Positions 10,977 to 36,402 of a DNA stretch of 38,253 bases are shown here, in pieces. The notes beneath the pieces were generated by a model. It ran no database searches. It was given only the letters and a program-made list of their open reading frames with translations, and was not told where the DNA came from. The stretch's first letter is position 1, and each line of letters opens with the position of its first letter. Origin of the DNA: Ruminococcus sp. (GTDB lineage Bacteria > Bacillota > Clostridia > Oscillospirales > Ruminococcaceae); contig JAFRXL010000035.1 of NCBI GenBank assembly GCA_017441505.1, positions 1 through 38,253 of the forward strand, in the 5' to 3' direction. A program made the position numbers and the translations under genes.

Positions 10977-12562
10977 TAAGGGTCGCAAATATAAGTGTAC
11001 CGCTTGATTTTGATATGTCGGGACTGAAAGAGCTGTGTATCAGAAAATTGCGTATATCGCCGAAGCTCATAAAAAGTGTAAAGCTTTCAAAAAAGTCGGT
11101 AGACGCACGAAAGAAAAAAGATGTTCATTTTATAATATCGGTCGACATTGAAGCTAAAAATGAGGACAGACTTTTGAAAAGTCTGAAGAATGCTTCAAAG
11201 ATAGAGAAATACAAGTATGTGACAGATAAAGTACCGTCACCGGAAAGACGTCCGGTAATAGTTGGATTCGGACCTGCCGGAATGTTTGCGGCATTAGTGC
11301 TTGCAATGGCTGGAGCAAGACCTATAGTCCTTGAAAGAGGCGGAGATGTTGATTCACGGGTTAAAGCGGTCGACGAATTCCGCACTTCCGGTAAGCTTGA
11401 TACCGAGTGCAATATACAGTTCGGCGAGGGCGGAGCAGGTACTTTCTCTGACGGCAAGCTGACTACTGGCATCAAAGATAAGCGGATAGGCTGGGTGCTT
11501 GAAAAGCTTGTGGAGTTCGGAGCTCCGGACGAGATAAAAATACTCGCTAAGCCGCATATCGGTACCGACAAGCTCAGAGAAGTTGTTAAAAAGCTAAGGG
11601 AGCGTGTCATAAGTCTTGGCGGAGAAGTGCGTTTCAGGTCAAGATTTTGCGGCTATAGCTCGGAGAATGGAACGATAAGGTCTGTTCAATATGAGCACGG
11701 CGGTGAAATCCACACCATTGAAACGGACAATGTGATACTTGCCACAGGTCACAGTGCAAGGGATGTTTTCGAGCTGCTTTATGAGAATAAGATAAGTCTT
11801 TCACAGAAAAATTTTGCTGTGGGAGTACGTATCGAGCATAAGCGTAACGATATAGATAAGGCTATGTACGGCGATTTTGCCGGACATCCGGCACTTAAAG
11901 CTGCGGACTATAAGCTCGTTGCACATCTTCCTAACGGACGCACTTTGTATACTTTCTGTATGTGTCCGGGCGGAGAGGTCGTAGCAGCGTCCTCGGAAGA
12001 GGGGAGACTTGCCGTAAACGGGATGAGCTGTTTTGCACGAGATGCAGAAAATTCAAACAGTGCACTTCTGGTGAATATAAATACTTCTGATTATGGCAGC
12101 GAGCATCCGCTTGCAGGTATGTGGTTTCAGAGAGAGCTTGAGGAAAAAGCGTTCATCGCAGGCGGTTCGGACTATAGTGCTCCGGTTATCACAGTAGGTG
12201 AATTTCTCAGCGGAGAAACTACAGAACACACAGGAAGTGTAAGACCGTCTTACACGCCTTCCGTAAAGCACGCATCTCCGGAGGAGTATCTGCCGGATTT
12301 TGTGGTAGAGTCGTTGAAACTCGGCATACCGGAAATGGGCAGGATGATAAAAGGCTTTGATGCTCCGGATGCTCTGCTGACAGGTATAGAGAGCAGAAGC
12401 AGCTCGCCTGTAAGGATAGACCGTGGAGAGGGAGCACAGTCTGTATCTCTTAGCGGACTTTTCCCATGCGGAGAGGGAGCAGGTTATGCCGGAGGAATAG
12501 TATCAGCAGCAGTTGACGGCATGAAATGTGCGGAAGCTGTTATCGAAAGACTGAAAAAATAA
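10973..12562 (+). CDS. FAD-dependent dehydrogenase-like protein (COG2509 type)
   Basis: This 529-residue protein has an N-terminal domain of about 90 residues with a basic stretch (VKLSKKSVDARKKKDV), then the FAD-binding motif VIVGFGPAGMFAALVLA and the family stretch ECNIQFGEGGAGTFSDGKL. Near the C-terminus, GLFPCGEGAGYAGGIVSAA is the FAD-closing motif typical of this group of uncharacterised dehydrogenases. It is coupled to the preceding flavoprotein by a 4-base overlap. The pair is familiar from many Firmicutes, so the two may act together; the reaction is not known. Confidence 0.88.
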   Translation: MIRVANISVPLDFDMSGLKELCIRKLRISPKLIKSVKLSKKSVDARKKKDVHFIISVDIEAKNEDRLLKSLKNASKIEKYKYVTDKVPSPERRPVIVGFGPAGMFAALVLAMAGARPIVLERGGDVDSRVKAVDEFRTSGKLDTECNIQFGEGGAGTFSDGKLTTGIKDKRIGWVLEKLVEFGAPDEIKILAKPHIGTDKLREVVKKLRERVISLGGEVRFRSRFCGYSSENGTIRSVQYEHGGEIHTIETDNVILATGHSARDVFELLYENKISLSQKNFAVGVRIEHKRNDIDKAMYGDFAGHPALKAADYKLVAHLPNGRTLYTFCMCPGGEVVAASSEEGRLAVNGMSCFARDAENSNSALLVNINTSDYGSEHPLAGMWFQRELEEKAFIAGGSDYSAPVITVGEFLSGETTEHTGSVRPSYTPSVKHASPEEYLPDFVVESLKLGIPEMGRMIKGFDAPDALLTGIESRSSSPVRIDRGEGAQSVSLSGLFPCGEGAGYAGGIVSAAVDGMKCAEAVIERLKK

Positions 12563-23673: not shown

Positions 23674-23748
23674 GTATTGGCATTTTTTACATTAAACTGT
23701 TAGACTGACCTAATATTTTTTATCATATACAAACTTCGCTTTATTTGA

Positions 23749-23844: not shown

Positions 23845-24057
23845 ATGATGCCGCTCAGTATGGCTGAACAGGAAAAGGAACTTGTTATTCGTAAGATAGG
23901 CGGAAATCCGGAGGTTAAAAAGCATCTGGAGGATCTTGGATTTCACGTTGGCGGCTGTATAAGTCTGGTTTCACGGCTTGGCGACAATGTCATCGTAAAG
24001 GTCAAAGAGTCGAGAGTAGCAATCAGCGAAGAACTTGCAAGAAAAATTATGATCTGA
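23845..24057 (+). CDS. feoA: FeoA family protein (divergent copy)
   Basis: FeoA is a small SH3-like cytosolic partner of the Fe(II) transporter FeoB. This 70-residue copy (LVIRKIGGNPEVKKHLEDLG, then GGCISLVSRLGDNVIVKVKES and a C-terminal VAISEELARKIMI) matches the FeoA fold and is clearly different from the other two FeoA proteins in the window. AAAGGG lies 7 bases before the ATG at 23845; an ATG follows directly at 23848. It is the first gene of an operon with a second feoA 11 bases downstream. Confidence 0.88.
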   Translation: MMPLSMAEQEKELVIRKIGGNPEVKKHLEDLGFHVGGCISLVSRLGDNVIVKVKESRVAISEELARKIMI

Positions 24058-24068
24058 GGTGGAAAAAA

Positions 24069-24293
24069 ATGAAAACTTTGAGAGAAACAGCTATCGGCAA
24101 AACAGTAAAGATAGTCAAGGTACATGGTGAGGGAGCAGTCAGACGCAGAATAATGGATATGGGCATTACAAAGGGAACTGACGTGACCGTTCGCAAGGTC
24201 GCACCGCTTGGGGACCCGATAGAAGTAACTGTTCGAGGATATGAGTTATCTATCCGCAAGGCTGATGCAGAAATGCTTGAAGTCAGTGAATAA
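24069..24293 (+). CDS. feoA: FeoA family protein (second copy of the first feo operon)
   Basis: This 74-residue FeoA carries MKTLRETAIGKTVKIVKVHG and VTVRKVAPLGDPIEVTVRGY, the usual core of the family. It is nearly the same protein as the FeoA at 33635-33853 (shared IMDMGxTKGTxVTVRKVAPLG and KADAEM) and much less like its operon neighbour. FeoA proteins are thought to bind FeoB and tune transport. GAGGTGG precedes the ATG. An intrinsic terminator overlaps its stop codon, so expression may exceed that of the downstream feoB. Confidence 0.95.
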   Translation: MKTLRETAIGKTVKIVKVHGEGAVRRRIMDMGITKGTDVTVRKVAPLGDPIEVTVRGYELSIRKADAEMLEVSE

Positions 24294-24314: not shown

Positions 24315-24342
24315 TTGATTTTATGTTAGTCTAAACTATCAA
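24315..24342 (+). promoter_or_regulatory. Weak promoter with TTAGTCTAA operator before feoB
   Basis: TTGATT (24315-24320) and TATCAA (24337-24342) with a 16-base spacer form a poor promoter. TTAGTCTAA (24326-24334), a perfect TTAG/CTAA inverted repeat around one base, lies in the spacer, where a repressor would act. Confidence 0.35.
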
Positions 24343-24367
24343 ATATATCAGGAAGGAAGAATATATA

Positions 24368-26845
24368 ATGGATATACGTATTGCCCTTGCGGGAAACCCG
24401 AACTGCGGCAAAACTACTCTTTTTAACGCTCTGACAGGTTCTAATCAGTTTGTCGGAAACTGGCCGGGTGTTACAGTTGAAAAAAAGGAAGGTAAGCTGA
24501 AAAAGCACAGTGATGTCACTATCACTGACCTGCCGGGAATATATTCACTTTCTCCATATACTCTGGAGGAAGTTGTTGCGAGAAATTATCTTATAGGCGA
24601 GCGTCCGGACGCTATCCTCAACATCATTGACGGTACGAATCTTGAACGTAACCTCTACCTTACAACACAGCTGACCGAGCTTGGTATTCCGGTCGTAATA
24701 GCTGTAAATATGATGGACGTTGTTAAAAAGAACGGCGACAAGATCAACATAGATGTTCTTTCAAAACAGCTTGGATGTAAAGTTGTTGAGATCTCCGCTC
24801 TTAAAGGTACCGGAGTTCAGGAAGCTGCTGAAGCTGCGATCAATGCTGCTAAGAGCGAAAAGACAGTTCCGATGCATACTTTCTCAGGACCTGTTGAACA
24901 CGCACTTGCTCACATTGAAGAAGCAATAGTTCACGATATGCCGGAGGAGCAGCAGCGTTGGTACGCATTGAAGGTTTTTGAGCGTGACGATAAGGTCATG
25001 GAGAAACTTAATATCTCTGATAATGTCAAAAAGCATATCGAGGAAGATATAGCTGCTGCCGAAAAAGAGCTTGATGATGATGCCGAGAGTATCATAACTA
25101 ACGAGCGTTATATCTACATAGCTGACGTTATCAAGTCCTGTTATAAAAAGAAGAGTGCAGGTAAACTGAACACATCAGATAAGATAGACAGGATCGTAAC
25201 GAACCGTTTCCTCGGACTTCCTATTTTCGCACTCATAATGATAATCGTTTACTATGTGTCTATATCCACTCTCGGAGGAACTCTCACAGACTGGACAAAT
25301 GATAATCTTTTTGGTGACGGTTTCATAGTTTCATCCTCAGGAAAAAAAGACTATGAGGACGATACAAAAGAATGGGCAGATAAATATATCTTTACTGATG
25401 AAGTGGGAGAAGTTATCGATGCAGCTTGTGAAGATGAAGACATTCACGGTGCAGAAGATATAAAAGATGCTTTCGAGTCCGGCGAATTTGCGGACTTTGA
25501 AGAGCAGTACGGGTTCTACAGAGATGAATTCTACAAAAAAGCTGAGTATGCTGAAGACGATGAGGAAACTCCTCTTAATCCTGAAGCTGTATACGATATA
25601 GATGCTGCTATCGGTGAAGGTCTCGATGAAGAGGGCGAATTCACAGCACCGGATATGGCTGATTACAAGGGATTCGTAAACAGTATCCCGGGTTATGCTG
25701 AGGAAGGTCTTGACAAGATAGGCTGTGCTGAGTGGCTCAAGAGCCTCATAGTTGACGGTGTTATCGGCGGTGTGGGAGCTGTTCTTGGATTTGTTCCACA
25801 GATGCTCGTACTCTTTATCTTCCTTGCATTCCTTGAAGCTTGCGGTTATATGGCAAGAGTTGCATTCATCATGGACCGTATCTTCCGCAGATTTGGTCTT
25901 TCAGGTAAGTCCTTCATTCCGATTCTTATCGGTACAGGTTGTGGTGTTCCTGGTATCATGGCTTCACGTACTATTGAAAACGAGCGTGACAGACGTATGA
26001 CTATCATGACTACTACTTTCATTCCATGCGGAGCTAAACTCCCTATCATTTCTATGATCGCAGTTGCACTTTTCGGAGGTGCATGGTGGGTAGGTCCAAG
26101 TGCTTACTTCCTCGGAATGGCAGCAATAGTGATCTCTGGTATCATGCTTAAAAAGACAAAAATGTTCGCAGGCGATCCTGCACCATTCGTAATGGAGCTT
26201 CCGGCATATCATATGCCAACAGTCAGCAACGTACTTCGTTCAATGTGGGAGCGTGGCTGGTCATTCATCAAGAAAGCCGGTACTATAATCCTTCTTTCAT
26301 CCATTGTTATCTGGGTGACTTCAACACTTGGCTGGTCAGACGGTTCATTTGGCTGGTATGCTGACCTTGAACTTGAAGATTCAATTCTCGGACATTTTGG
26401 TGATGCTATCAAGTGGCTGTTTACTCCTCTTGGATTTGACGATGCCGCAGCAGCAGTTGCAACAGTTATGGGTCTTGTTGCTAAGGAAGAGGTTGTCGGA
26501 GTATTCGGAGTTCTCGACTTTGAAGGCTTGACAAAGCTTGCAGGTTACTCATTCCTTGCATTCAATCTGCTCTGTGCACCTTGCTTTGCTGCTATCGGTG
26601 CAATCAGACGTGAGATGAACAATCCTAAGTGGACATTATTCGCTATCGCATATCAGTGCGGATTTGCATATGCTGTATCACTTGTGATCTATCAGCTCGG
26701 TTGTATGTTCACAGGAAATGTACACATCGTTGGTCTTATCTTTGCATTTGCTGTAATTGCACTTCTCATTTATCTCCTTGCAAGACCATACAAGGAAGCT
26801 ACAAAGCTTGATAAAAATGTTAAAGTAAGCAAATCTCGTTCCTAA
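24368..26845 (+). CDS. feoB: Ferrous iron transporter FeoB (first copy)
   Basis: FeoB is the inner-membrane GTP-dependent Fe(II) importer. The 825-residue protein has a cytosolic G domain with G1 GNPNCGKT (9-16), G2 NWPGVT (31-36), G3 DLPG (54-57) and the FeoB-type G4 NMMD (114-117), then a helical GDI region (to about 270). The membrane part follows, with the FeoB gate motifs GTGCGVPGIMASRTIENERDRR (in two parts) and LLCAPCFAAIGAIRRE. Between the first membrane segment (about 282-304) and the next (from about 464) lies a very acidic segment of about 160 residues, much longer than the usual loop. The terminator and operator upstream set it apart from the feoA genes. Confidence 0.97.
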   Translation: MDIRIALAGNPNCGKTTLFNALTGSNQFVGNWPGVTVEKKEGKLKKHSDVTITDLPGIYSLSPYTLEEVVARNYLIGERPDAILNIIDGTNLERNLYLTTQLTELGIPVVIAVNMMDVVKKNGDKINIDVLSKQLGCKVVEISALKGTGVQEAAEAAINAAKSEKTVPMHTFSGPVEHALAHIEEAIVHDMPEEQQRWYALKVFERDDKVMEKLNISDNVKKHIEEDIAAAEKELDDDAESIITNERYIYIADVIKSCYKKKSAGKLNTSDKIDRIVTNRFLGLPIFALIMIIVYYVSISTLGGTLTDWTNDNLFGDGFIVSSSGKKDYEDDTKEWADKYIFTDEVGEVIDAACEDEDIHGAEDIKDAFESGEFADFEEQYGFYRDEFYKKAEYAEDDEETPLNPEAVYDIDAAIGEGLDEEGEFTAPDMADYKGFVNSIPGYAEEGLDKIGCAEWLKSLIVDGVIGGVGAVLGFVPQMLVLFIFLAFLEACGYMARVAFIMDRIFRRFGLSGKSFIPILIGTGCGVPGIMASRTIENERDRRMTIMTTTFIPCGAKLPIISMIAVALFGGAWWVGPSAYFLGMAAIVISGIMLKKTKMFAGDPAPFVMELPAYHMPTVSNVLRSMWERGWSFIKKAGTIILLSSIVIWVTSTLGWSDGSFGWYADLELEDSILGHFGDAIKWLFTPLGFDDAAAAVATVMGLVAKEEVVGVFGVLDFEGLTKLAGYSFLAFNLLCAPCFAAIGAIRREMNNPKWTLFAIAYQCGFAYAVSLVIYQLGCMFTGNVHIVGLIFAFAVIALLIYLLARPYKEATKLDKNVKVSKSRS

Positions 26846-26860
26846 ACAGGAGGAATTATT

Positions 26861-27004
26861 ATGGGCACTTTCTTGGTACTTTTGGTCTTACTGCTTACAG
26901 TGGGACTTGTAATTCATACTATGATAAAAGACAAACGCTCCGGAAAGGGCGGGTGCTCGCACGGTTGTCAGAACTGTGCTATGCATGGTCAATGCCATAA
27001 ATAA
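26861..27004 (+). CDS. FeoB-associated Cys-rich membrane protein (first copy)
   Basis: This 47-residue protein has one N-terminal membrane segment (about 3-22), a short basic stretch (KDKRSGK) and a Cys-rich tail CSHGCQNCAMHGQC with cysteines at 32, 36, 39 and 45 (CX3CX2CX5C). It matches the FeoB_associated family, small proteins encoded after feoB that probably take over or gate Fe(II) at the membrane. It starts 15 bases after feoB with a strong AGGAGG, so it is in the same transcript. A nearly identical Cys pattern occurs in the second copy at 36463-36633. Confidence 0.93.
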   Translation: MGTFLVLLVLLLTVGLVIHTMIKDKRSGKGGCSHGCQNCAMHGQCHK

Positions 27005-27049
27005 TACAGAAAGCAGACTTTACAGCGTAATTTTAAGGAGACAGATCAT

Positions 27050-27081
27050 AAGTAAGAGCCTTTACCATGAGGCTCTTACTT
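27050..27081 (+). terminator. Terminator-like hairpin after the first feo operon
   Basis: AAGTAAGAGCC (27050-27060) and GGCTCTTACTT (27071-27081) form a perfect 11-base-pair stem with a 10-base loop. The right flank is AT-rich but lacks a true T-run, so termination may be partial. Confidence 0.5.
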
Positions 27082-27086
27082 AGATT

Positions 27087-27112
27087 ATATAGTTAGCTAT
27101 ATCTAACTATAT
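27087..27112 (+). promoter_or_regulatory. Inverted repeat, possible iron-repressor operator of the flavodoxin operon
   Basis: Ten-base arms ATATAGTTAG (27087-27096) and CTAACTATAT (27103-27112) flank a 6-base centre. It contains TTAG-6-CTAA, like the sequences at the feo promoters. It lies 131 bases before the flavodoxin start, in a 239-base gap that holds no gene I can support and no clear sigma-A promoter; the promoter probably overlaps this repeat. Confidence 0.5.
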
Positions 27113-27243: not shown

Positions 27244-27648
27244 ATGAAAACAGCAGTAATTTTTTGGAGCGGCACAGGCAATACTGAGGCTATGGCAAAG
27301 GCAGCAGCTGAGGGTGCAAATGCAGAGCTTTTTGAGGTATCAGACTTCAGCGGCAATGCTGCCGACTACGACGCATTCGCTTTTGGCTGCCCTGCAATGG
27401 GTGCAGAGGTGCTTGAAGAAGATACATTCGAGCCATTTTTCACAGGTATCGAAGGTTCACTCAGCGGAAAGAAAGTTCTTCTTTTCGGTTCATATGGCTG
27501 GGGAGACGGCGAGTGGATGAGAAACTGGTATGACCGCACAAAGGCAGCCGGTGCAGACCTTATCGGTGACGAAGGATTTATCGTTAACGAAGCTCCTTCA
27601 GACGATGACCTTGCAAAACTCAAAGAGCTTGCTGCTCAGCTTGCATAA
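27244..27648 (+). CDS. Short-chain flavodoxin
   Basis: Flavodoxin carries electrons by FMN and commonly replaces ferredoxin in iron shortage. The 134-residue protein starts MKTAVIFWSGTGNTEAMAKA with the FMN phosphate loop SGTGNTE (9-15), and has the isoalloxazine loops FGCPAMGAEVLEE and FGSYGWGDGEWM. The length fits short-chain flavodoxins. The ATG at 27244 follows TAGGAGGAAT; an in-frame ATG at 27163 has no ribosome site. It is 10 bases upstream of the Tp47-like gene and probably supplies electrons to the redox proteins encoded after it, though the direct partner is unknown. Confidence 0.95.
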   Translation: MKTAVIFWSGTGNTEAMAKAAAEGANAELFEVSDFSGNAADYDAFAFGCPAMGAEVLEEDTFEPFFTGIEGSLSGKKVLLFGSYGWGDGEWMRNWYDRTKAAGADLIGDEGFIVNEAPSDDDLAKLKELAAQLA

Positions 27649-27658
27649 GGAGGCTTAC

Positions 27659-29161
27659 ATGAAGAAAATCACATCAATTATCAGTGCCGCAGCTTGCCTG
27701 ACCGCACTTACAGCTGCTGCTTTACCGGCAAATGCTGCAAGCAGCGAAAAGGTTTACGGCACTATGAATATCCCTTATGCAGACTTTTATTCAGCTGAAA
27801 TAGGCAATGCTTATGAAGTTGATGCAGTATCATCCGCTACTAAAAGCAAATGGGCAATGAATGAGCCTGGCAAGCTTGTTGCAGGAACATATAACGACGG
27901 AAACGGTACTATTCTCGGCGTTACATTCCCTGTTGAAGTAAACGCAGGCGATGTTGATAAGCTTTCAAAATATGACTTCAAGGCACTCGATGAAAAGCCT
28001 GCTGCGTATAAGAGAGTTTCGCTTTCCGGTGATGCACTTAGTGTATCAAAGCTTGTTGATACCAACGGCGAACAGAATGTTGACGGCTCTGCAACTGTTT
28101 CAACATCAACAAGATATGGCGATTATCAGCTCAATGTCAAGGGGTATCCTGAGGGAGCTGACCTCTATGGTGTTATAGTCAATACCAAGGAGGGCGATAA
28201 ATATGCACTCCGTCACCTTGAAAATATCTGGAGAAGCGGTCAGATTTCATGGTCAACCGGTATAACCACAAAAGAGGGTCACGGAAACGAACTGAGATTT
28301 GAGGATTATGCAAGCTCAATGGGCAAAACAGCTGCATCAGTTACTTTCATAACTCTTGACGGATATACAAATGTAAATATCGGCGATCAGTATCTCCCGA
28401 TAAAGTTCGGGGGAGAGGTAAAAGCTGAGGACGCTGCTGCCGGTACAGGAAAAACTTCACTTACATTTACTGGCTTCCCTGATGATTACAGAAAAGTCAT
28501 CACAATTGGCGAAGAATTTAAAGCAAATGAGAATGAAATAAGCTACACAAATGCTAAGCCTGGTAAATATACTGTTACAGTGACTGACGTTTCAGGCAAG
28601 TATGCTTCGTTTTCAGCTGCATTTACACTTTCATCAGAAGATATTCCTGTAAAATATGAGGACGGTAAGCTCGTAAAGGCTGACGGCTTCTCAGATGAAG
28701 ATGCAGCTAACTTCATCAAAAACATTGCATCCCTTACAGTTAATGAATCGACCTATAGTGCTTCCGGAAGAGGCTCTGTTAAGATAGTCGGTGAGGACGG
28801 TACTATAAACTTCGATGCTGAAACACAAAATGGTAAGGTATTTGACGGCAGCGGAAATTACACGATCTCAGTAACAGCTACAGGTTATACATCTCCTTAT
28901 AATTTCGAGATAAAGCCTGAGGAAACTATTGTAACAACTATTGCCACAACTTCAGCAGAAGTTACTTCAACAACTACTACAGTAACAACAGATTCAAAAT
29001 CTACATCAGCAGCAAGTAAGACAAACAAAACTAATGGCAATAAGGCTGGATCAAATAAGGTTGACAGCCCTAAGACCGGAGTAACTGGTGCAGCAGTTCC
29101 GGCAGCAATTTTAGCTCTTGCAGGTGCAGCAGCATTTGTAATGAGAAGAAAGAACGATTAA
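27659..29161 (+). CDS. Secreted Tp47-like surface protein with sortase-type tail
   Basis: This 500-residue protein has a Sec signal (1-26, cleavage after PANA) and an N-terminal region like the Treponema Tp47 (Pbp-Tp47) domain: VYGTMNIPYADFYSAEIGN and DAVSSATKSKW. DAVSSAT (55-61) also resembles the flavinylation motif of FMN-binding domains. Later segments (about 270-430) look like Ig-type beta repeats (LTFTGFPDDYRKVITIG; GKYTVTVTDVSG). A Thr/Ser-rich spacer (about 430-465) leads to SPKTG (470-474), a hydrophobic helix and RRKND, a cell-wall sorting signal of the [SP]PxTG class known for Clostridioides sortase B. The role here is unknown; operon context suggests surface redox or iron work. 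Confidence 0.85.
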   Translation: MKKITSIISAAACLTALTAAALPANAASSEKVYGTMNIPYADFYSAEIGNAYEVDAVSSATKSKWAMNEPGKLVAGTYNDGNGTILGVTFPVEVNAGDVDKLSKYDFKALDEKPAAYKRVSLSGDALSVSKLVDTNGEQNVDGSATVSTSTRYGDYQLNVKGYPEGADLYGVIVNTKEGDKYALRHLENIWRSGQISWSTGITTKEGHGNELRFEDYASSMGKTAASVTFITLDGYTNVNIGDQYLPIKFGGEVKAEDAAAGTGKTSLTFTGFPDDYRKVITIGEEFKANENEISYTNAKPGKYTVTVTDVSGKYASFSAAFTLSSEDIPVKYEDGKLVKADGFSDEDAANFIKNIASLTVNESTYSASGRGSVKIVGEDGTINFDAETQNGKVFDGSGNYTISVTATGYTSPYNFEIKPEETIVTTIATTSAEVTSTTTTVTTDSKSTSAASKTNKTNGNKAGSNKVDSPKTGVTGAAVPAAILALAGAAAFVMRRKND

Positions 29162-29183
29162 ATTTTCCTTTCATAATATAAAC

Positions 29184-29212
29184 GACCTCTGCGGCATAGT
29201 GCTGCGGAGGTC
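29184..29212 (+). other. Long hairpin in front of the FMN-binding protein gene
   Basis: GACCTCTGCGGC (29184-29195) and GCTGCGGAGGTC (29201-29212) form a 12-base-pair stem with two G-T pairs and a 5-base loop. It lacks a T-run, so it is more likely an mRNA processing or stability element, or a weak attenuator. Confidence 0.55.
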
Positions 29213-29237
29213 AAATACTGCGAAGAGGTATATTTTT

Positions 29238-30668
29238 ATGTTATTTTTAATTTCACTTGTAATAGCGGTACTCGTTGCTTTTTGCCTTGATAAGCCGCTG
29301 AAAAAACACCCTGTGTTATTCTATGCAGCCGCCGCTGTACTGACAGTCATAACTATCATAACAGAACAGTCAAATGTAACTATATCAAACAGCTTTGTCA
29401 GAGACTATGTCCTCGGAGTATTCACAAGAGGTGCTTTGGGAGCTGCTTTCTGGGCAGTCGTTATGTGGGCAGGAGCTCTGCCTAACGGCACTTTCGCTAT
29501 TAAAAAGATAATGCCGATACGTGGAGAGCTTTCCATAACTGCTGCAATACTCACGCTCTCCCACGTAATTACATATGGTATACAGCATATCTCCGACATT
29601 ATACGTGACAGAACAGGCTCCGGCGACGCATTCCGCAGTTTTGTTATAACAAGTATAGTATGTCTTGTAATGGTACTTATAATGATACCGCTGACTATTA
29701 TGTCATTCAAGACGATACGTAAAAAGATGGATCCTAAAACGTGGAAGAAGATACAGCGTGCAGCTTATATCTTTTACGCATTTATTTTTGTTCATGTAAT
29801 GGTTCTTTTCATTCCGAAGGCTCAGAAGGGAAAGGACGGATATTTCCTTAGTGTTATAGTTTACAGTGTGATATTTATTGGATACGCAGTTATGCGTATC
29901 CGCAAGGCGTATATTTCAAAAAAGAAGCCGGAAGCCAAAGCAGTTACTAATGTTGTATGTGCCTGTGCGATGATAGTGCCTTTGTGTATAATTGGATTTG
30001 TTTCCCGCAATACCGGAAATAAAGAGACTATTCAGGCTACAAAGGAGAATCCGGCAACATTTATATTTGAAGCTCCTACAGATAATGTTGATTCTTCCGA
30101 TGCAAAGACTGTTTCTGTTACAACTACTACTCTGAATACTGCTCTGACAACATCATCAGTAACCTCGACCTCGGGTACTGCGACCGGTTCAACTGAAACA
30201 TCTGTTACAACTTCCACCCAGACCACAGACATAAATAATACAACTGAGACAGAAGAAGCTGTGAATGAAGAACCTCAGGAAGAAAATGCTCCTGATGAAA
30301 ATGAAGACCCTGCTGAAACTCCGCAGGAACATACTCCTGAACCACCTAAGGAGAATGTACAGGAAACTCCTCCTGCCGAAGAACAGCCTTCATACCGCTT
30401 TAAAAACGGAACTTTTGAAGGTACAGGCGAGGGCTATGCAGGCTCGGTACACGTTTCTATTACTATTGAAAATGACTTCATAACAGGCTTCTCTGCATAT
30501 GCTGATGACGACGACCCTGACTATTTCAGCGATGCTATGCAGCACGTTATACCGCAGATACAAAGAAGCATAAGTGCTGACGGTATCGATGCTTGCTCCG
30601 GAGCAACTTACAGCTCAAATGGTATCATTGAAGCTGCAAGGGATGCTTTGGAGAAAGCTAAAAACTAA
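29238..30668 (+). CDS. Ferric-reductase-like membrane protein fused to an FMN-binding domain
   Basis: The 476-residue protein has about seven membrane segments in residues 1-260 with a ferric-reductase-like core: RGELSITAAILTLSHV (H109) and YAFIFVHVMVLF (H176) are likely heme ligands. A Thr/Ser-rich then Pro/Glu-rich external linker (about 285-390) leads to an FMN_bind domain (about 392-476). Its motif DACSGATYSS (451-460) fits the flavinylation consensus, so T457 should carry FMN added by ApbE; no apbE is in the window. Expected role: passing electrons across the membrane to extracytoplasmic acceptors such as Fe(III). The ATG at 29238 has AAGAGG 9 bases upstream; a GTG at 29199 would lie in the hairpin. 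Confidence 0.9.
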   Translation: MLFLISLVIAVLVAFCLDKPLKKHPVLFYAAAAVLTVITIITEQSNVTISNSFVRDYVLGVFTRGALGAAFWAVVMWAGALPNGTFAIKKIMPIRGELSITAAILTLSHVITYGIQHISDIIRDRTGSGDAFRSFVITSIVCLVMVLIMIPLTIMSFKTIRKKMDPKTWKKIQRAAYIFYAFIFVHVMVLFIPKAQKGKDGYFLSVIVYSVIFIGYAVMRIRKAYISKKKPEAKAVTNVVCACAMIVPLCIIGFVSRNTGNKETIQATKENPATFIFEAPTDNVDSSDAKTVSVTTTTLNTALTTSSVTSTSGTATGSTETSVTTSTQTTDINNTTETEEAVNEEPQEENAPDENEDPAETPQEHTPEPPKENVQETPPAEEQPSYRFKNGTFEGTGEGYAGSVHVSITIENDFITGFSAYADDDDPDYFSDAMQHVIPQIQRSISADGIDACSGATYSSNGIIEAARDALEKAKN

Positions 30669-30782: not shown

Positions 30783-33344
30783 TTATTGCCAGAAAATAAT
30801 GAGGTCTTCTGCGTAGTGAATGAGGTTCGGGCAATGCTTTAAGAGAAGACCGTCCTTGACGCTCAGCATGATAAACCAGCTCATAACAAATGCACCTGCG
30901 AATGAAGCTATTGCAAGGATATAACGCTGAGGATGTTTTTTGGCATTACCTGTTCCACGGAAGATACAGATAAATGCTCCCAGAAGAATGAGAGGGGTAA
31001 TATCAACGACATAACGCTGATTAACTCCGCCCATGCAGAAGTCCATCCAGCCGATTATCAAAGCCAGAGCAAAGCACATTATAATAAATGCGTTACGCTG
31101 GAGCTTTGTGGTTGAGCAAGTGAAATGCTTTCCGTGACGCTGAATTGCTGACGGGGCGAGTAAAGTACCGAAAAGAAGTGCAGGAATAGTCATAAGTCCG
31201 ACCGTATCAGCAACATAGGTATATTTGGAGTAGTTGTAAATTCCGGAATAGTTTGGCTCAATGAATGGGAAGGCTCCCTTCGGACGTGGTACAAGGAAGA
31301 AATAGTGGTAAAGCATTGGAGGAAATCCGCCGAGATAGAGCACATTGGCATTAACGTTGCTTACTGTGAGCTGATATGTTGCTCCGAAGTCGAATGGTGA
31401 GCCGAAACGAGCGTTGTTGTACCACATTATTGCGATACCGCCGGCGATAAGCGGAGCAAAGAATACAGCTGCCTGAGATATACGGTATGAAAGCTTGACC
31501 TTTTTATCCATGAGTATTCCGAGGAAGAACGGGATGAGTACAGCAGATGAAAGTGCGACGCTTGGTCTTGCACCTACAGCAGCGGCAAGTGACGCACCGC
31601 AGATGAACAGCATAACGAAGCGGACTGCTTTATTTTTCTGTGAGCAAGCTCCAAGACCCATCCATAGTCCAAGGAACAGGTAAGCCAGACCGCAGGCTAA
31701 CTGTAATGTATAGGTATCAGAGAAGTTCATACAGAAGTAGAATCCGGCACAGCTTGCAGCGGTAGGGAGCGAAATAAGCAAAAGCAGCAGATTAGTTCTC
31801 GGAGCAAGCAGCTTTACAGCAGCAAGGAGTGTCTGACACATGAAGAATATGCCCATGATACCGAAGAATCCTGTTACCATAGGGCGGTCAGGAAGCTTGC
31901 CGGTAAGTGCGTAGTAAGGTACGTGGAAAGTGATGACCGGAGTAACTCCGAAATAGCTGTAGTAGTGACCGTCCTTATAAGCGAGATCCCAGAAATATGA
32001 GACATTTTGGTTGTCACGTTCTGTACGGCTGTAAGGATCATCCATATTCAAAAGGCTTTGATCGGGCTCTATTTCAAGGTAGGTCTGATCTCTTTGGAAA
32101 GCATCGAAAGTAGCAGCGTAAGGGTCGCCTATAGGAGGATTTTCCTTGCTGTACTCAAAACCTCTGCTCTGCGGACAGAATGTAAGAGCGAGGAAGAAAG
32201 TGCAGGCGAGGGTGAATATCTTGATTATAGTCTGATTTGTATTATTTTTAGCGAGTGATTTGCTTCTGGAAATAGCTGTAATAATTATAATTGCAGATAT
32301 AAAGAGCACAAGGAATGTAATTGCCCTTGAGCTGAATGAATTGCTGAAGAACGAATGCTGGAACTTATTGAATACCCCCTTAATATCCTTGTCGCCGTCT
32401 GTGAGGTAAGGAGCTGTGAACATTGCAGCGGAGAATGTACAAATAAGTGCCATAGCTTCAACTAAGACTATGTGGAGCGGCTTTGAAGTCTGGTATGTGA
32501 CCTTGTAGAGTCTGAAAGAGAGTACAGCCTGTATCAGTATAACTATAGAGAGTACTATCATAAATCTCAGAAGAGAGAAACTGAAAGGTATCGCACTAAA
32601 AGCTTTTACAGAGAATACAGTAACAGGATTATTTACGTCAGAAAAGCCGATTTTAAGTGATCTTATCTCTCCATACGGGATAAATGAAAGGCTTACCGGC
32701 TTGCCTGTTGCAAAGTCATAAACCTGCATAGCGGTATCGTATTCAGTAGTTACATTATCGTCCATGACACCAAGTGAAACGCAAACAGGTGACGAATTTT
32801 CCTTTCGTTCCTGTTCGATGTCGATGACTAAGGCTCTGCAATAGTCCGGGACGTTATCGATGAATATTTCTGAATTTGACGATATACCGATAGAATCATC
32901 ATAGTAAACGGCACTGCCGCTTGTTGGCAAGATGCTGAGATCAAGAGTTTCGCTTTTTCTTTTGGTATCGAAGCTCTTAAAATTGAAAATCAGTATTTCT
33001 GCACTCATGACGGCAAATGCTGCAACAGCAGCTCTTTTCAGAAAAGATGCGAGCTGTTTTTTTGAAGAAAATTCTTTAGTCAGGAATGCGGCAAACGGAA
33101 GGATGCTCGTAATAATTATTGCCACAGGCGAGATCATATTGCCATTGTTTGACATAAAGAACTGTGAAATCGCATTCAGGAAAAGGAGTACACACCATTC
33201 CAGAATGAATAATTTAAAAAGTTTCTGAAGTTTCTGCTTCTTGATTTTTTCATCCGTTTTCTTTTTAGTCATTATGGTATTTGCTGAAAGAAAACTGAGA
33301 ATGAATAGCAATAAGGGGATTATTGCTGTAACTGCAATGCTCAT
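30783..33344 (-). CDS. Polytopic membrane protein, glycosyltransferase GT-C-like
   Basis: This 853-residue protein has an N-terminal part of about four membrane segments, an external domain (about 135-260, with VCVSLGVMDDNVTTEYDTA), and a C-terminal part of ten or more segments. In the second part YKDGHYYSYFGVTPVITFHV and NARFGSPFDFGATYQLT are stretches I associate with GT-C type membrane glycosyltransferase-like proteins of unknown substrate. Lipid-linked sugar transfer to a surface polymer is a guess. GGAGG lies 10 bases before the ATG at 33344. It has its own consensus promoter and sits between the two feo loci on the opposite strand, so it need not be part of the iron system. Confidence 0.75.
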   Translation of the reverse strand: MSIAVTAIIPLLLFILSFLSANTIMTKKKTDEKIKKQKLQKLFKLFILEWCVLLFLNAISQFFMSNNGNMISPVAIIITSILPFAAFLTKEFSSKKQLASFLKRAAVAAFAVMSAEILIFNFKSFDTKRKSETLDLSILPTSGSAVYYDDSIGISSNSEIFIDNVPDYCRALVIDIEQERKENSSPVCVSLGVMDDNVTTEYDTAMQVYDFATGKPVSLSFIPYGEIRSLKIGFSDVNNPVTVFSVKAFSAIPFSFSLLRFMIVLSIVILIQAVLSFRLYKVTYQTSKPLHIVLVEAMALICTFSAAMFTAPYLTDGDKDIKGVFNKFQHSFFSNSFSSRAITFLVLFISAIIIITAISRSKSLAKNNTNQTIIKIFTLACTFFLALTFCPQSRGFEYSKENPPIGDPYAATFDAFQRDQTYLEIEPDQSLLNMDDPYSRTERDNQNVSYFWDLAYKDGHYYSYFGVTPVITFHVPYYALTGKLPDRPMVTGFFGIMGIFFMCQTLLAAVKLLAPRTNLLLLLISLPTAASCAGFYFCMNFSDTYTLQLACGLAYLFLGLWMGLGACSQKNKAVRFVMLFICGASLAAAVGARPSVALSSAVLIPFFLGILMDKKVKLSYRISQAAVFFAPLIAGGIAIMWYNNARFGSPFDFGATYQLTVSNVNANVLYLGGFPPMLYHYFFLVPRPKGAFPFIEPNYSGIYNYSKYTYVADTVGLMTIPALLFGTLLAPSAIQRHGKHFTCSTTKLQRNAFIIMCFALALIIGWMDFCMGGVNQRYVVDITPLILLGAFICIFRGTGNAKKHPQRYILAIASFAGAFVMSWFIMLSVKDGLLLKHCPNLIHYAEDLIIFWQ

Positions 33345-33634: not shown

Positions 33635-33853
33635 ATGAATCTTAAAGAAGTTAAGATAGGCAGTACAGTAAAAATAAAGAAGATCCTGGGAGAAGGTGCA
33701 TTAAGGCGGCGTATCATGGATATGGGACTGACAAAAGGCACTGAGGTAACTGTAAGAAAAGTTGCACCGCTTGGCGATCCTATAGAGATAACTGTAAGAG
33801 GCTATGAACTTTCCATGCGTAAGGCAGATGCTGAAATGGTAGAAGTTGAGTGA
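33635..33853 (+). CDS. feoA: FeoA family protein (second feo operon)
   Basis: This 72-residue FeoA (MNLKEVKIGSTVKIKKILGE, then LTKGTEVTVRKVAPLGDPIE) is close to the FeoA at 24069-24293 over its whole length, which points to duplication of a feoA-feoB unit. TGGAGGAAT lies 6-10 bases before the ATG. It is the first gene of the operon and is followed 59 bases later by feoB with no terminator between, unlike the first locus. It should act as the partner of the adjacent FeoB. Confidence 0.95.
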   Translation: MNLKEVKIGSTVKIKKILGEGALRRRIMDMGLTKGTEVTVRKVAPLGDPIEITVRGYELSMRKADAEMVEVE

Positions 33854-33912: not shown

Positions 33913-36402
33913 ATGAGTATCAAAATTGCATTGGCAGGCAACCCTAACTGCGGTAAGACTACCCTGTTTAATGCACTTACAGGTTCAAATCAGTATGTCG
34001 GAAACTGGCCAGGTGTTACGGTTGAGAAAAAAGAGGGTAATCTTAAAAAGCATGAAGGAGTTATAATCACTGACCTTCCTGGAATATATTCTCTTTCACC
34101 TTATACTCTTGAAGAGGTAGTTGCAAGAAATTACCTCATCGGTGAGCACCCTGATGCTATCCTGAATATCATTGATGGTACTAATCTTGAAAGAAATCTG
34201 TATCTTACAACACAGCTCACAGAGATAGGTATACCGGTCGTTCTTGCGGTAAATATGATGGATGTAGTCAGGAAAAACGGCGATAAGATAAATATGGATG
34301 CCCTTGCAAAAGCTATGGGCTGTAAGGCTGTTGAGATCTCGGCTTTAAAAGGTGACGGTATCATTGAAGCTGCCGAAGCTGCTATAGCTGCTGCAAAGGA
34401 GTCGACAACTGTCCCTCAGCATTCTTTTTCCGGTCCGGTCGAGCACGCACTTGCTCATATTGAAGAAGCCGCACTCCACGAGCTGCCGGAGCAGACTCAG
34501 CGGTGGTATTCTATAAAGATATTTGAGCGTGATTCAAAAGCTCTTGAACAGCTTGGTCTTGATAAGAAAGTTCTGGAGCATATTGAAAAGGACATAAAGT
34601 CTGTTGAGATAGAAATGGATGATGACTCGGAAGCTATCATCATAAACGAGAGATATAACTATGTTTCAAAGATAATCGGAAGATGTCTTCAAAAGAAAAA
34701 CAAGAGCGGCTTTACAACATCAGATAAGATCGACAGGATCGTTACGAGCAGAGTACTCGGACTTCCTATTTTCGCAGTTATAATGTTCCTGATATATTAT
34801 CTGTCAATGGTCGCAGTGGGAGCTAATGCTTCACAGTGGGCTAATGACGGACTTTTCGGAGAAGGCTGGCATCTTCTCGGAAACGGAACGTCACAGTACG
34901 AGGAAGCTGAGGAAAAGTACGGCGATACAGATGCTATAATTGACGGATTCCTTGAACAGGCTGATTCCGACGGATATGACATCACTGCGGCAGAAGATGC
35001 TATCGACATTGAATCAGACGGCTTTGATGCAGAAGCTGCTGAGAGAGAATTGAATACCCTTCTTGCAAATTATACCGACAAGAACTTTGAGTTCGGGTAT
35101 GAAGTCGAGAATGAAGATACACTTGAAGTAAGTGATAAGAATGCGACTATTGCTGATGCAGAAGAAGCTGTCGCACTCTTTAAGGAATACGACGGTAAGG
35201 TCGACCCTGCAAACTTTGGAACATGGGTACCGGGAGTTCCTGTACTTATTGAAAAAGCTCTTGGAGATGATTGTCCGGAGTGGCTTCATGGACTTCTTAT
35301 CGACGGTATCGTTGCCGGAGTCGGAGCAGTTCTTGGATTTGTTCCGCAGATATTCGTACTCTTCCTGCTTCTTGCAATAGTTGAGTCATGCGGATATATG
35401 TCCCGTGTAGCTTTCGTCCTTGACCGTCTTTTCCGCAAATTTGGTCTTTCAGGAAAGTCATTCATACCTATACTTGTTGGTACAGGATGCGGAGTTCCGG
35501 GAATAATGGCTTCACGTACTATCGAAAACGTCCGTGACCGCCGTATGACGATCATAACTACGACCTTTATTCCGTGCGGAGCGAAAACACCGGTCATTGC
35601 CATGATAGCCGGAGCAATATTCGGCGGTTCGGCATGGGTGGCTGTTTCAGCATATTTCCTCGGAATGGCAGCTATAATCATATCAGGTATAATCCTTAAA
35701 AAGACAAAAATGTTCGCAGGTGAGGACTCTCCTTTTGTAATGGAGCTTCCTGCGTATCATATGCCGATACCGAGCAATGTACTCCGTTCAATGTGGGACC
35801 GTGGCTGGGCGTTTGTGAAAAAAGCAGGTACAGTTATACTGCTTTCAACAATAGTAGTATGGTTCCTCAGCCGTTTCGGTTCTGTCAACGGCAGCTTCGG
35901 ACTGCTTGGAGAAGATGAGCTTGATCACTCGATACTTGCTTTTGTTGGCAAGGGCATCGCATGGATGTTCGCACCTCTTGGCTGGGGAGAATGGCAGGCA
36001 GCTGTTTCCTCCGTTATCGGACTTACCGCAAAGGAAAATATCGTTGCGACAATGGGAACGCTTTACGGCGGCGGAGAATCATCTGTATACGCAGCAATTG
36101 CAGATAACTTCACAAAAATCTCAGGATATTCTTTCCTCGCATTCAATCTTCTTTGTGCTCCGTGCTTTGCAGCTATCGGAGCTATCAAGCGTGAGATGAA
36201 CAATGGTAAGTGGACATGGTTTGCTATTCTGTACCAGTGTGGTTTTGCGTATCTTACAGCTTTTGTTATCAATCAGCTCGGCAGATTCTTTACGGGCGGA
36301 GCAAGCGGGATCGGTTATATTGGCACAGTTCTTTCGTTTGCAATACTTGCCGCTGCCGTTTACCTCCTTGTAAGACCATACAGGGAAACAATAAAGAAAT
36401 AG
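33913..36402 (+). CDS. feoB: Ferrous iron transporter FeoB (second copy)
   Basis: This 829-residue GTP-dependent Fe(II) importer matches the first FeoB closely in the G domain (GNPNCGKT 9-16, NWPGVT 31-36, DLPG 54-57, NMMD 114-117) and in the membrane gates (GTGCGVPGIMASRTIENVRD; LLCAPCFAAIGAIKRE). It too has a long acidic loop between the first membrane segment (about 282-304) and the next (from about 465), but that loop has a different sequence (ANDGLFGEGWHLLG, then many Asp, Glu and Ala). Near residue 715 it has a short GTLYGGGESSVY segment absent from copy one. A ribosome site GTGAGGAAA precedes the ATG. Confidence 0.97.
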   Translation: MSIKIALAGNPNCGKTTLFNALTGSNQYVGNWPGVTVEKKEGNLKKHEGVIITDLPGIYSLSPYTLEEVVARNYLIGEHPDAILNIIDGTNLERNLYLTTQLTEIGIPVVLAVNMMDVVRKNGDKINMDALAKAMGCKAVEISALKGDGIIEAAEAAIAAAKESTTVPQHSFSGPVEHALAHIEEAALHELPEQTQRWYSIKIFERDSKALEQLGLDKKVLEHIEKDIKSVEIEMDDDSEAIIINERYNYVSKIIGRCLQKKNKSGFTTSDKIDRIVTSRVLGLPIFAVIMFLIYYLSMVAVGANASQWANDGLFGEGWHLLGNGTSQYEEAEEKYGDTDAIIDGFLEQADSDGYDITAAEDAIDIESDGFDAEAAERELNTLLANYTDKNFEFGYEVENEDTLEVSDKNATIADAEEAVALFKEYDGKVDPANFGTWVPGVPVLIEKALGDDCPEWLHGLLIDGIVAGVGAVLGFVPQIFVLFLLLAIVESCGYMSRVAFVLDRLFRKFGLSGKSFIPILVGTGCGVPGIMASRTIENVRDRRMTIITTTFIPCGAKTPVIAMIAGAIFGGSAWVAVSAYFLGMAAIIISGIILKKTKMFAGEDSPFVMELPAYHMPIPSNVLRSMWDRGWAFVKKAGTVILLSTIVVWFLSRFGSVNGSFGLLGEDELDHSILAFVGKGIAWMFAPLGWGEWQAAVSSVIGLTAKENIVATMGTLYGGGESSVYAAIADNFTKISGYSFLAFNLLCAPCFAAIGAIKREMNNGKWTWFAILYQCGFAYLTAFVINQLGRFFTGGASGIGYIGTVLSFAILAAAVYLLVRPYRETIKK

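Follow-up and report, generated by a model that had tools for sequence, protein, structure and literature searches.

Two adjacent plus-strand genes in a 38,253-nucleotide contig of Ruminococcus sp. (JAFRXL010000035.1, henceforth the window) probably encode an iron-regulated extracytoplasmic electron-transfer module that feeds the ferrous iron transporter FeoB. The window is labelled C11 in an assembly of 2.24 Mb (GCA_017441505.1; 79.6% complete), and all coordinates given without a locus or contig label are whole-window positions. The first gene (27659–29161), referred to as HID, encodes a secreted Tp47-family protein that is anchored in the wall and has a Shr-like HID domain, and the second (29238–30668), referred to as FUS, encodes a membrane domain, a linker of ~130 residues and an FMN_bind domain. 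A short-chain flavodoxin gene precedes them (27244–27648, plus strand; PF00258, E = 4e-15; TIGR01753, 131 bits against a cut-off of 123), and the gene order reads feoA, feoA, feoB, FeoB_associated, strong hairpin, 26-bp palindrome, flavodoxin, HID, FUS. A flavodoxin, a secreted wall-anchored protein and a membrane/FMN_bind fusion encoded directly after feoAAB had been noted in an original prediction made from this sequence, and were confirmed by Pfam; synteny across relatives and a common operator indicate that the grouping is not due to chance. The analysis suggests cell-surface reduction of ferric iron by the HID-FUS pair.

We infer the following scheme from sequence, including its heme content, electron donor, acceptor (ferric iron), repressor and the exact job of HID. 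FUS would reside in the membrane, where a small cytochrome domain of the MsrQ/ferric-reductase type would take electrons from an inner donor, either quinol or a flavodoxin- or NAD(P)H-linked one. The electrons would cross via heme bound by H109 and H186 and reach FMN attached by ApbE to T457, at the tip of the long flexible linker. HID, predicted to be sortase-anchored in the wall, would serve as the outer partner by taking electrons or presenting an Fe(III) ligand, and the resulting Fe(II) would be imported by FeoB, encoded next door. Both feo and HID-FUS would be switched by one metal repressor of the DtxR family, bound to GTTAG-N6-CTAAC. The reductive iron uptake chain put forward in the original prediction is partly supported: feoB linkage and the common operator speak for it, flavodoxin as donor and a role for the second Feo system are not supported as stated, and the lack of ApbE in the window's own assembly counts against it.

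To our knowledge, the conversion of Fe(III) to Fe(II) for FeoB in strictly anaerobic gut and rumen Firmicutes is poorly known. Systems combining MsrQ-like and FMN_bind domains have been described previously; the new elements are the Tp47-family partner and the operator common to feo and HID-FUS. The Tp47-family partner, the FeoB linkage and the operator were not described in the titles and abstracts listed by the literature searches, which showed some of the hits and covered few subscription journals. A predicted flavinylated transmembrane cytochrome is here tied to Feo by gene pairing and a searchable common operator, and the iron regulon of these bacteria is therefore testable.

Pairing of HID and FUS in Ruminococcus

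FUS was searched for in 100 genus genomes, of which 65 matched and 59 were judged by hand to contain a real copy; the other six, with partial or low-complexity matches only, were left out of the counts. One stretch was taken per FUS genome (57 in all), second copies on other contigs being left out, and G150, a partial match from which no stretch was taken, is still counted among the 59. Neighbouring genes were mapped by tblastn at 60 FUS loci including the window, four of which have too little upstream sequence. HID was observed on the same strand and directly upstream, within 700 bp, in 56 of 56 FUS loci with at least 1.7 kb of upstream sequence. Conversely, FUS lay no more than 900 bp downstream of HID in 56 of 56 genus HID loci.

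Similar results were obtained with a set of 80 loci from named relatives, drawn by HID and overlapping the genus sample. This set contains 76 FUS genes, all 73 with enough upstream sequence being paired with HID, and FUS follows HID at 79 of 82 loci, two of the other three lying at contig ends. The named relative that matches best in the genome collection is a sheep-rumen Ruminococcus metagenome-assembled genome (L115) whose HID is 90% identical. Many of the others are Ruminococcus flavefaciens, and strain FD-1 of this species (L123) has the pair. HID-FUS is a tightly linked gene pair in Ruminococcus flavefaciens-related rumen bacteria.

Linkage to iron and flavin genes

Absence of feoB near the pair in relatives had been named beforehand as a refuting result; the opposite was found. 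Of the 32 loci flanked by 7 kb on either side, 20 have feoB at most 7 kb from FUS (24 when all 60 loci are counted). The feoB gene was upstream on the same strand in 19 loci, downstream on the opposite strand in four and upstream on the opposite strand in one. ApbE genes were found within 3 kb of FUS in 15 of 60 loci (five among the 32 fully flanked), and within 5 kb EetB was found in 15 of 60 and EetA in 11 of 60.

Two gene contexts were distinguished, with DUF2325, DUF3793, NusG_II and Hpre_diP_synt_I labels assigned by Pfam matches; NusG_II presumably corresponds to Listeria EetA and Hpre_diP_synt_I to Listeria EetB. Context A reads feoA-feoA-feoB-FeoB_associated-DUF2325-DUF3793-flavodoxin-HID-FUS, with convergent and divergent variants, and context B reads HID-FUS-ApbE-EetA-EetB. 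One locus (L099) joins both in co-directional order, feoB...DUF2325-DUF3793-flavodoxin-HID-FUS-ApbE-EetA-EetB, from feoB at 1524 to EetB at 11280, two regulator-like genes separating feoB from DUF2325. Listeria EetB is an FAD-exporting ECF-S subunit (PMC9973259).

A DUF6110 gene, which we take to be FezA-like, was present within 5 kb of FUS in nine of 60 loci. Directly 3' of FUS in L068 (5564–8884), a DUF6110-type gene, an AraC-type gene and a P-type ATPase gene resemble the ferrosome genes fezXAB. FezA and FezB are needed for ferrosomes and are repressed by Fur (PMC12574912).

An operator-like palindrome shared by feo and HID-FUS

A palindrome scan upstream of 62 HID genes ranked GTTAG-N6-CTAAC first (21 of 62, none in shuffles). 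A position weight matrix (PWM) was built from 29 HID sites only and then applied elsewhere. Since the PWM was trained on HID sites, the HID counts are not independent of it, while those for feoA and DUF2325 are, except in divergent gaps shared with HID. At a score of at least 8, sites were found before HID-first genes in 44 of 64 upstream regions (the 29 training sites included), feoA-first in 23 of 25, DUF2325 in 21 of 26 and ApbE in 3 of 34. None was found before FUS (0 of 95), HID behind flavodoxin (0 of 34) or flavodoxin (0 of 36), which are mostly internal genes, and other open reading frames (ORFs) of the same loci, a control that includes divergent neighbours, gave 21 of 400.

Across the 2.19 Mb scanned, 456 sites scored at least 8 versus 66 in the reversed sequence, and 110 scored at least 17 versus none. 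Most of the distinct sites (301 of 359) lie near the starts of tblastn-labelled feo, HID, DUF2325, DUF3793, fez-like, apbE, eetA or flavodoxin genes. The site was present in 38 of 45 FUS loci with at least 4.5 kb of upstream sequence. These 38 include all eight apbE-linked loci that lack a nearby feo, and among such apbE-linked loci with a shorter upstream stretch four of six have the site, which therefore does not merely reflect proximity to feo.

The window contains three such sites. One (23694–23719; score 10.6) precedes the first feoA and a second (24320–24345; 12.2) lies in the feoA/feoB gap, where relative L115 also has one (5668; 15.5). The third and best, ATATAGTTAG-CTATAT-CTAACTATAT, has perfect 10-bp arms and precedes flavodoxin-HID-FUS (27087–27112; 23.3, the window maximum). 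The next score, 5.2, falls within a coding region.

Exact copies of GTTAG-N6-CTAAC number four in the whole assembly versus none for a reversed-pattern control. Two of them precede flavodoxin-HID-FUS and, on another contig, DUF2325-DUF3793 (L240, C20:1503). The third lies between a C_GCAxxG_C_C gene and a NifU_N-like/GGGtGRT pair (L237, C5:102089) and the fourth before an ABC transporter (L238, C10:190959). The genes behind these copies are a candidate metal regulon. Stringent mismatch searches with a 14-base palindrome showed no enrichment in the window's genome with two mismatches (3 versus 5 in the control per strand), nor in the window with three (1 match, 1.8 expected); the operator claim rests on the comparative PWM and the exact core. 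In several relatives, the palindrome was also found before genes that by eye resemble enolase and ZIP-type transporters (L057:11604, L079:1817, L115:15354, L230:430, L114:6859).

The geometry, an inverted repeat with a 6-nt spacer upstream of metal genes, fits a putative DtxR-family operator. PsaR and SloR, relatives of ScaR and FimR in the DtxR family, are metal-activated repressors of metal uptake, and their operators are 8-nt inverted repeats with 6-nt spacing (PMC3688865). The geometry is the same here; the arms are GTTAG..CTAAC rather than ATTAA..TTAAT. A candidate regulator with a PF01325 Fe_dep_repress match (E = 1e-11) is encoded between the operator and HID in L096, and the window's genome contains two matches to PF02742.

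These linkages bear on whether the pair could instead be a general outlet for extracellular electrons, serving to balance redox state or to respire minerals, humics or flavins and merely expressed at metal limitation. In its favour, 14 of the 15 apbE-linked genus loci, with their apbE-eetA-eetB linkage, have no feoB nearby, and multi-FMN_bind proteins adjoin the membrane domain in other families. The Listeria extracellular electron transfer (EET) locus also uses apbE and eetB parts (PMC9973259), and in Clostridium a flavinylated NosR with ApbE is a proposed route of Fe(III) respiration (PMC13134045). However, feoB is linked to FUS in three arrangements, and the palindrome of the feo genes recurs at apbE-linked loci lacking feo. 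We therefore consider the outlet rather unlikely, although it survives better than the other alternatives.

FUS and its predicted FMN site

Translation of FUS most likely starts at ATG 29238 because the upstream GTG 29199 falls within a hairpin (29184–29212); the T457 numbering used in the original prediction agrees with this start. The Pfam scan was run from GTG 29199. The predicted protein is hydrophobic in segments up to about residue 260, continues with a linker rich in Thr, Ser, Glu and Pro and ends in an FMN_bind domain (PF04205, E = 5e-12) with the motif DACSGATYSS. Asp451, Gly455, Thr457 and Ser459 are invariant among 62 aligned sequences, and the DACSGAT portion agrees with the D-x-x-[ST]-G-A-[ST] motif; a DxxSGAT pattern was unmatched in 27 of 140 FUS-labelled ORFs. 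The domain also matches the solved structure CbFMN4-D1 (8p2b, E = 9e-17), in which FMN is reported to be covalently held on Thr67 (PMC10339131). T457 is the predicted flavinylation site. An NAD-binding domain (PF00175) was absent from the Pfam scan of FUS.

HID and its relationship to Tp47

HID was scanned from in-frame position 27656 (ATG 27659) to 29161. It matched Shr-like_HID PF07550 (29.4 bits, cut-off 22.3) and the Ruminococcus NPXTG anchor signal NF033846 (33.2 bits, cut-off 23.5), and its start appears signal-peptide-like by eye. PF07550 was matched at E ≤ 1 by 28 of 29 HID members.

The original description of this protein as Tp47-like was correct, but the relationship is remote. Membership of the window protein in a Tp47 Pfam family was rejected, as no Tp47 model matched it at E ≤ 1, and no HID tested reached the 25-bit cut-off of PBP-Tp47_a or _c (best 19.2, in L228). 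A narrower HID profile (A1) failed to find the Tp47 structure 1o75. A wider profile including distant members (A3) did find it (E = 7e-4), as did the distant member L228 on its own (E = 1.6e-12), and homology was retained on this basis. It covers the N-terminal region, YG...YAD...DAVSxAT, in which DAVSSAT of HID (residues 55–61) aligns with DAVSRAT of Tp47 (the Treponema pallidum 47 kDa membrane antigen). Penicillin binding has been reported for Tp47, which is a lipoprotein, whereas HID is sortase-anchored by prediction and carries the added HID domain.

At the position equivalent to the motif Gly, Ser is found in all 60 aligned HID members holding the region and Arg in Tp47. The DxxSSAT type occurs in 142 of 148 HID-labelled ORFs, and the three with a G-type motif are those carrying an extra FMN_bind domain. 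HID thus departs from the published ApbE-substrate motif D-x-x-[ST]-G-A-[ST], in which a Gly-to-Ala change cuts flavinylation to ~50% (PMC12052999). HID as a diverged FMN_bind domain was rejected as a demonstrated homology, since hhalign covered the motif only (15 columns, probability 13%). Given Ser for Gly and no FMN_bind homology beyond the motif, flavinylation of HID at DAVSSAT is possible but unproven, and remains speculative.

The HID domain raises the prospect of heme-iron acquisition, with HID binding heme or hemoproteins as in Shr and FUS reducing the bound ferric heme. Beyond the PF07550 matches given above, this draws on a weak NCBIfam IsdC match (18.6 bits, cut-off 156) confined to residues 409–498, the anchor region. 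No NEAT domain was found in the window HID or among the 25 of 50 families listed for the alignment, and two distant loci (L229 and L230) keep the FUS/ApbE link with no PF07550 match at E ≤ 10. Heme acquisition is accordingly improbable.

Distant families

At class level, 24 of 31 genomes were dropped as their HID match began only at profile position 345. The HID-FUS pair is kept in distant families in L224, L229, L230 and L231. In L224 (11465–13824), FezA/FezB-like genes (DUF6110-type and P-type ATPase) lie directly 3' of FUS and feoB is divergent. Separately, 13 distant loci encoding the FUS membrane domain (12 genomes) were hand-picked among the best matches to that domain. In eight of these 13, a same-strand gene one to four genes away encodes two to five FMN_bind domains, and two of these eight neighbours also carry SLH surface domains. 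Operator sites scoring at least 8 were barely above the reversed control (11 versus 7), and those scoring at least 17 numbered 8 versus 0. Two of the multi-FMN_bind loci (L277 and L278) have two strong operators 5' of FUS and ApbE.

Two further distant loci without an adjoining FUS (L226:8166–14726 and L227:8409–10664) encode HID/Tp47-family proteins that carry at their N terminus an FMN_bind-type domain (LDAKTGATYTT or LDARTGATYTT), over the cut-off in L226 and below it in L227. In L228 (8868–13604), a 1578-residue SLH protein that has Tp47-like units and two copies of DAVSSAT adjoins a double FMN_bind protein, ApbE and EetA.

The L226/L227 fusions and the multi-FMN_bind neighbours favour a redox role for HID. 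It is conceivable, if doubtful, that the Tp47-family domain works as a redox module of flavin-based electron transfer, with the invariant Thr of DAVSSAT carrying or docking a flavin and HID acting as a terminal surface ferric reductase. HID would then do the job of the multi-FMN_bind proteins found beside the same membrane domain elsewhere. If true, the poorly characterised Tp47 family, to which the syphilis antigen belongs, would gain a redox or metal role that replaces the contested one in penicillin binding. The genus members, as constant partners of a flavin-linked membrane protein, provide a functional lead for this family.

It is still less probable than heme acquisition that HID and FUS carry out no joint reaction and are iron-sparing genes under one repressor, flavodoxin replacing ferredoxin and flavin replacing cytochromes. 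Flavodoxin, DUF2325 and DUF3793 do stand behind the operator, with DUF2325-DUF3793 of the window's genome on a separate contig behind an exact copy, but HID and FUS are never apart in the genus sample (56 of 56 in both directions), even where feo and flavodoxin are missing. A wall enzyme (penicillin-binding protein or carboxypeptidase, as claimed for Tp47) with FUS as an accidental neighbour would agree with the Tp47 homology, the Pfam models named for penicillin-binding protein Tp47 and the distant genomes with HID but no FUS, but is very improbable given the genus-wide pairing with an FMN_bind membrane protein, the FMN_bind-HID fusions of L226/L227 and the metal-type operator.

Observations against the proposed role

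Several observations weigh against a ferric-reducing module that feeds FeoB. The membrane domain of FUS passes the Ferric_reduct PF01794 cut-off of 28 bits marginally (29.0 bits), and the top NCBIfam match of FUS is MamZ, at 38 bits against a cut-off of 650. His109 and His186 are the only two invariant histidines found in the alignment, and the invariant Gln173 stands at what we take to be the position of the third MsrQ histidine. Among the linkage data, 12 of 32 fully flanked FUS loci have no feoB within 7 kb, seven of 45 with at least 4.5 kb upstream have no operator, and one named-set HID (L162) has no FUS despite 9 kb of room; the locus counts in general ignore shared ancestry. In distant families, FUS is missing within 900 bp of HID at six of ten loci (L114, L225, two in L226, L227 and L228), and all 13 loci with the FUS membrane domain lack HID, five of them also lacking an FMN_bind array.

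ApbE was not found in the window's own 79.6%-complete assembly, a finding named in advance as refuting the chain, nor in G221, which has FUS, is 97% complete and is an unexplained exception. In the former, a lost contig is the likeliest reason because a further FMN_bind protein encoded there, RnfG-like, also carries the motif (DAISGAT). ApbE was present in 77 of 100 genus genomes and in the genome of L115. Genomes with FUS have it more often (55 of 59) than those without (22 of 41; p = 5e-6), an association confounded by completeness. Its absence from the window's own assembly counts against the chain as first stated.

Comparison with known systems

The closest known systems are the MsrQ-like flavinylation systems, which combine a PF01794 membrane protein, FMN_bind and ApbE (Meheust et al. 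2021, PMC8238504). There, 153 clusters include the ferrous transporter VIT1 and are proposed assimilatory iron reductases. FUS shares the PF01794 membrane domain, by a small margin, and FMN_bind; ApbE is encoded in most FUS genomes but was not found in the window's own assembly. The linkage to a ferrous iron transporter is here through feoB. The present system differs in having FeoB as the transporter, no attached NAD-binding domain (frequent but not obligatory there) and a Tp47-family wall protein as constant partner in the genus. It also differs in host, being found in Ruminococcus and relatives, while the described systems are broad in Actinobacteria and infrequent elsewhere; neither FeoB nor Ruminococcus is mentioned in the main text of PMC8238504. 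A protein with MsrQ and FMN-Bind domains has been modelled (PMC11334425, Fig. 5 legend).

Some relatives have components of Listeria flavin-based EET (PplA, FmnB/ApbE, EetA and EetB; PMC9973259) downstream of HID-FUS, namely apbE, EetA-like and EetB-like genes. The present system has a Ferric_reduct-type transmembrane step, a wall protein that is not FMN_bind and a metal-type operator. The NosR-ApbE system of iron-reducing Clostridium likewise pairs an FMN_bind membrane protein with ApbE in a Gram-positive anaerobe, with extracellular Fe(III) reduction proposed (PMC13134045). It differs in its NosR-type membrane protein and proposed respiratory role; no Tp47-type partner was seen in the available part of that paper, and FeoB is unmentioned in its main text. 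In Bifidobacterium breve, also a Gram-positive gut anaerobe, an FMN-binding possible ferric reductase lies beside iron uptake genes (SifE/bfeUO; PMC5449479), and an apbE mutant is impaired with ferrous chelators. The B. breve system uses a Sif ABC transporter and BfeUO, and the available part of the paper showed no Tp47-like partner.

Other features of the window

The feo operon upstream of the pair consists of two plus-strand feoA genes (23845–24057, PF04023 E = 1.2e-15; 24069–24293, E = 1.2e-21), feoB (24368–26845, plus strand; FeoB_N, Gate and FeoB_C by Pfam) and a FeoB-associated Cys-rich membrane protein gene (26861–27004, plus strand; PF12669 E = 3e-14). It is followed by a strong terminator-like plus-strand hairpin without a T tract (27049–27082; fold of 27006–27082, z = -3.8), which was not among the terminators called by the terminator scan. 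That scan (2 found, 3.6 expected) and a consensus promoter scan (8 found, 8.7 expected) were uninformative.

A role of flavodoxin as the electron donor of the chain is not supported as stated; flavodoxin may simply stand in for ferredoxin at low iron. The module was also described as lying between two Feo systems. A second feoA/feoB pair was indeed found by Pfam (33635–33853 and 33913–36402), but a convergent minus-strand gene for an 853-residue hydrophobic membrane protein (30783–33344; no Pfam match over cut-off) stands between it and flavodoxin-HID-FUS. A role for this second pair is likewise not supported as stated. Only a weak operator (33576; score 4.5) precedes it. The two Feo systems of the window may differ in control.

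The hairpin in the HID/FUS gap (29184–29212, plus strand) is GC-rich and has no T tract (fold of 29162–29237, z = -4.6). It may be a readthrough or processing element that sets the HID:FUS ratio via processing or partial termination.

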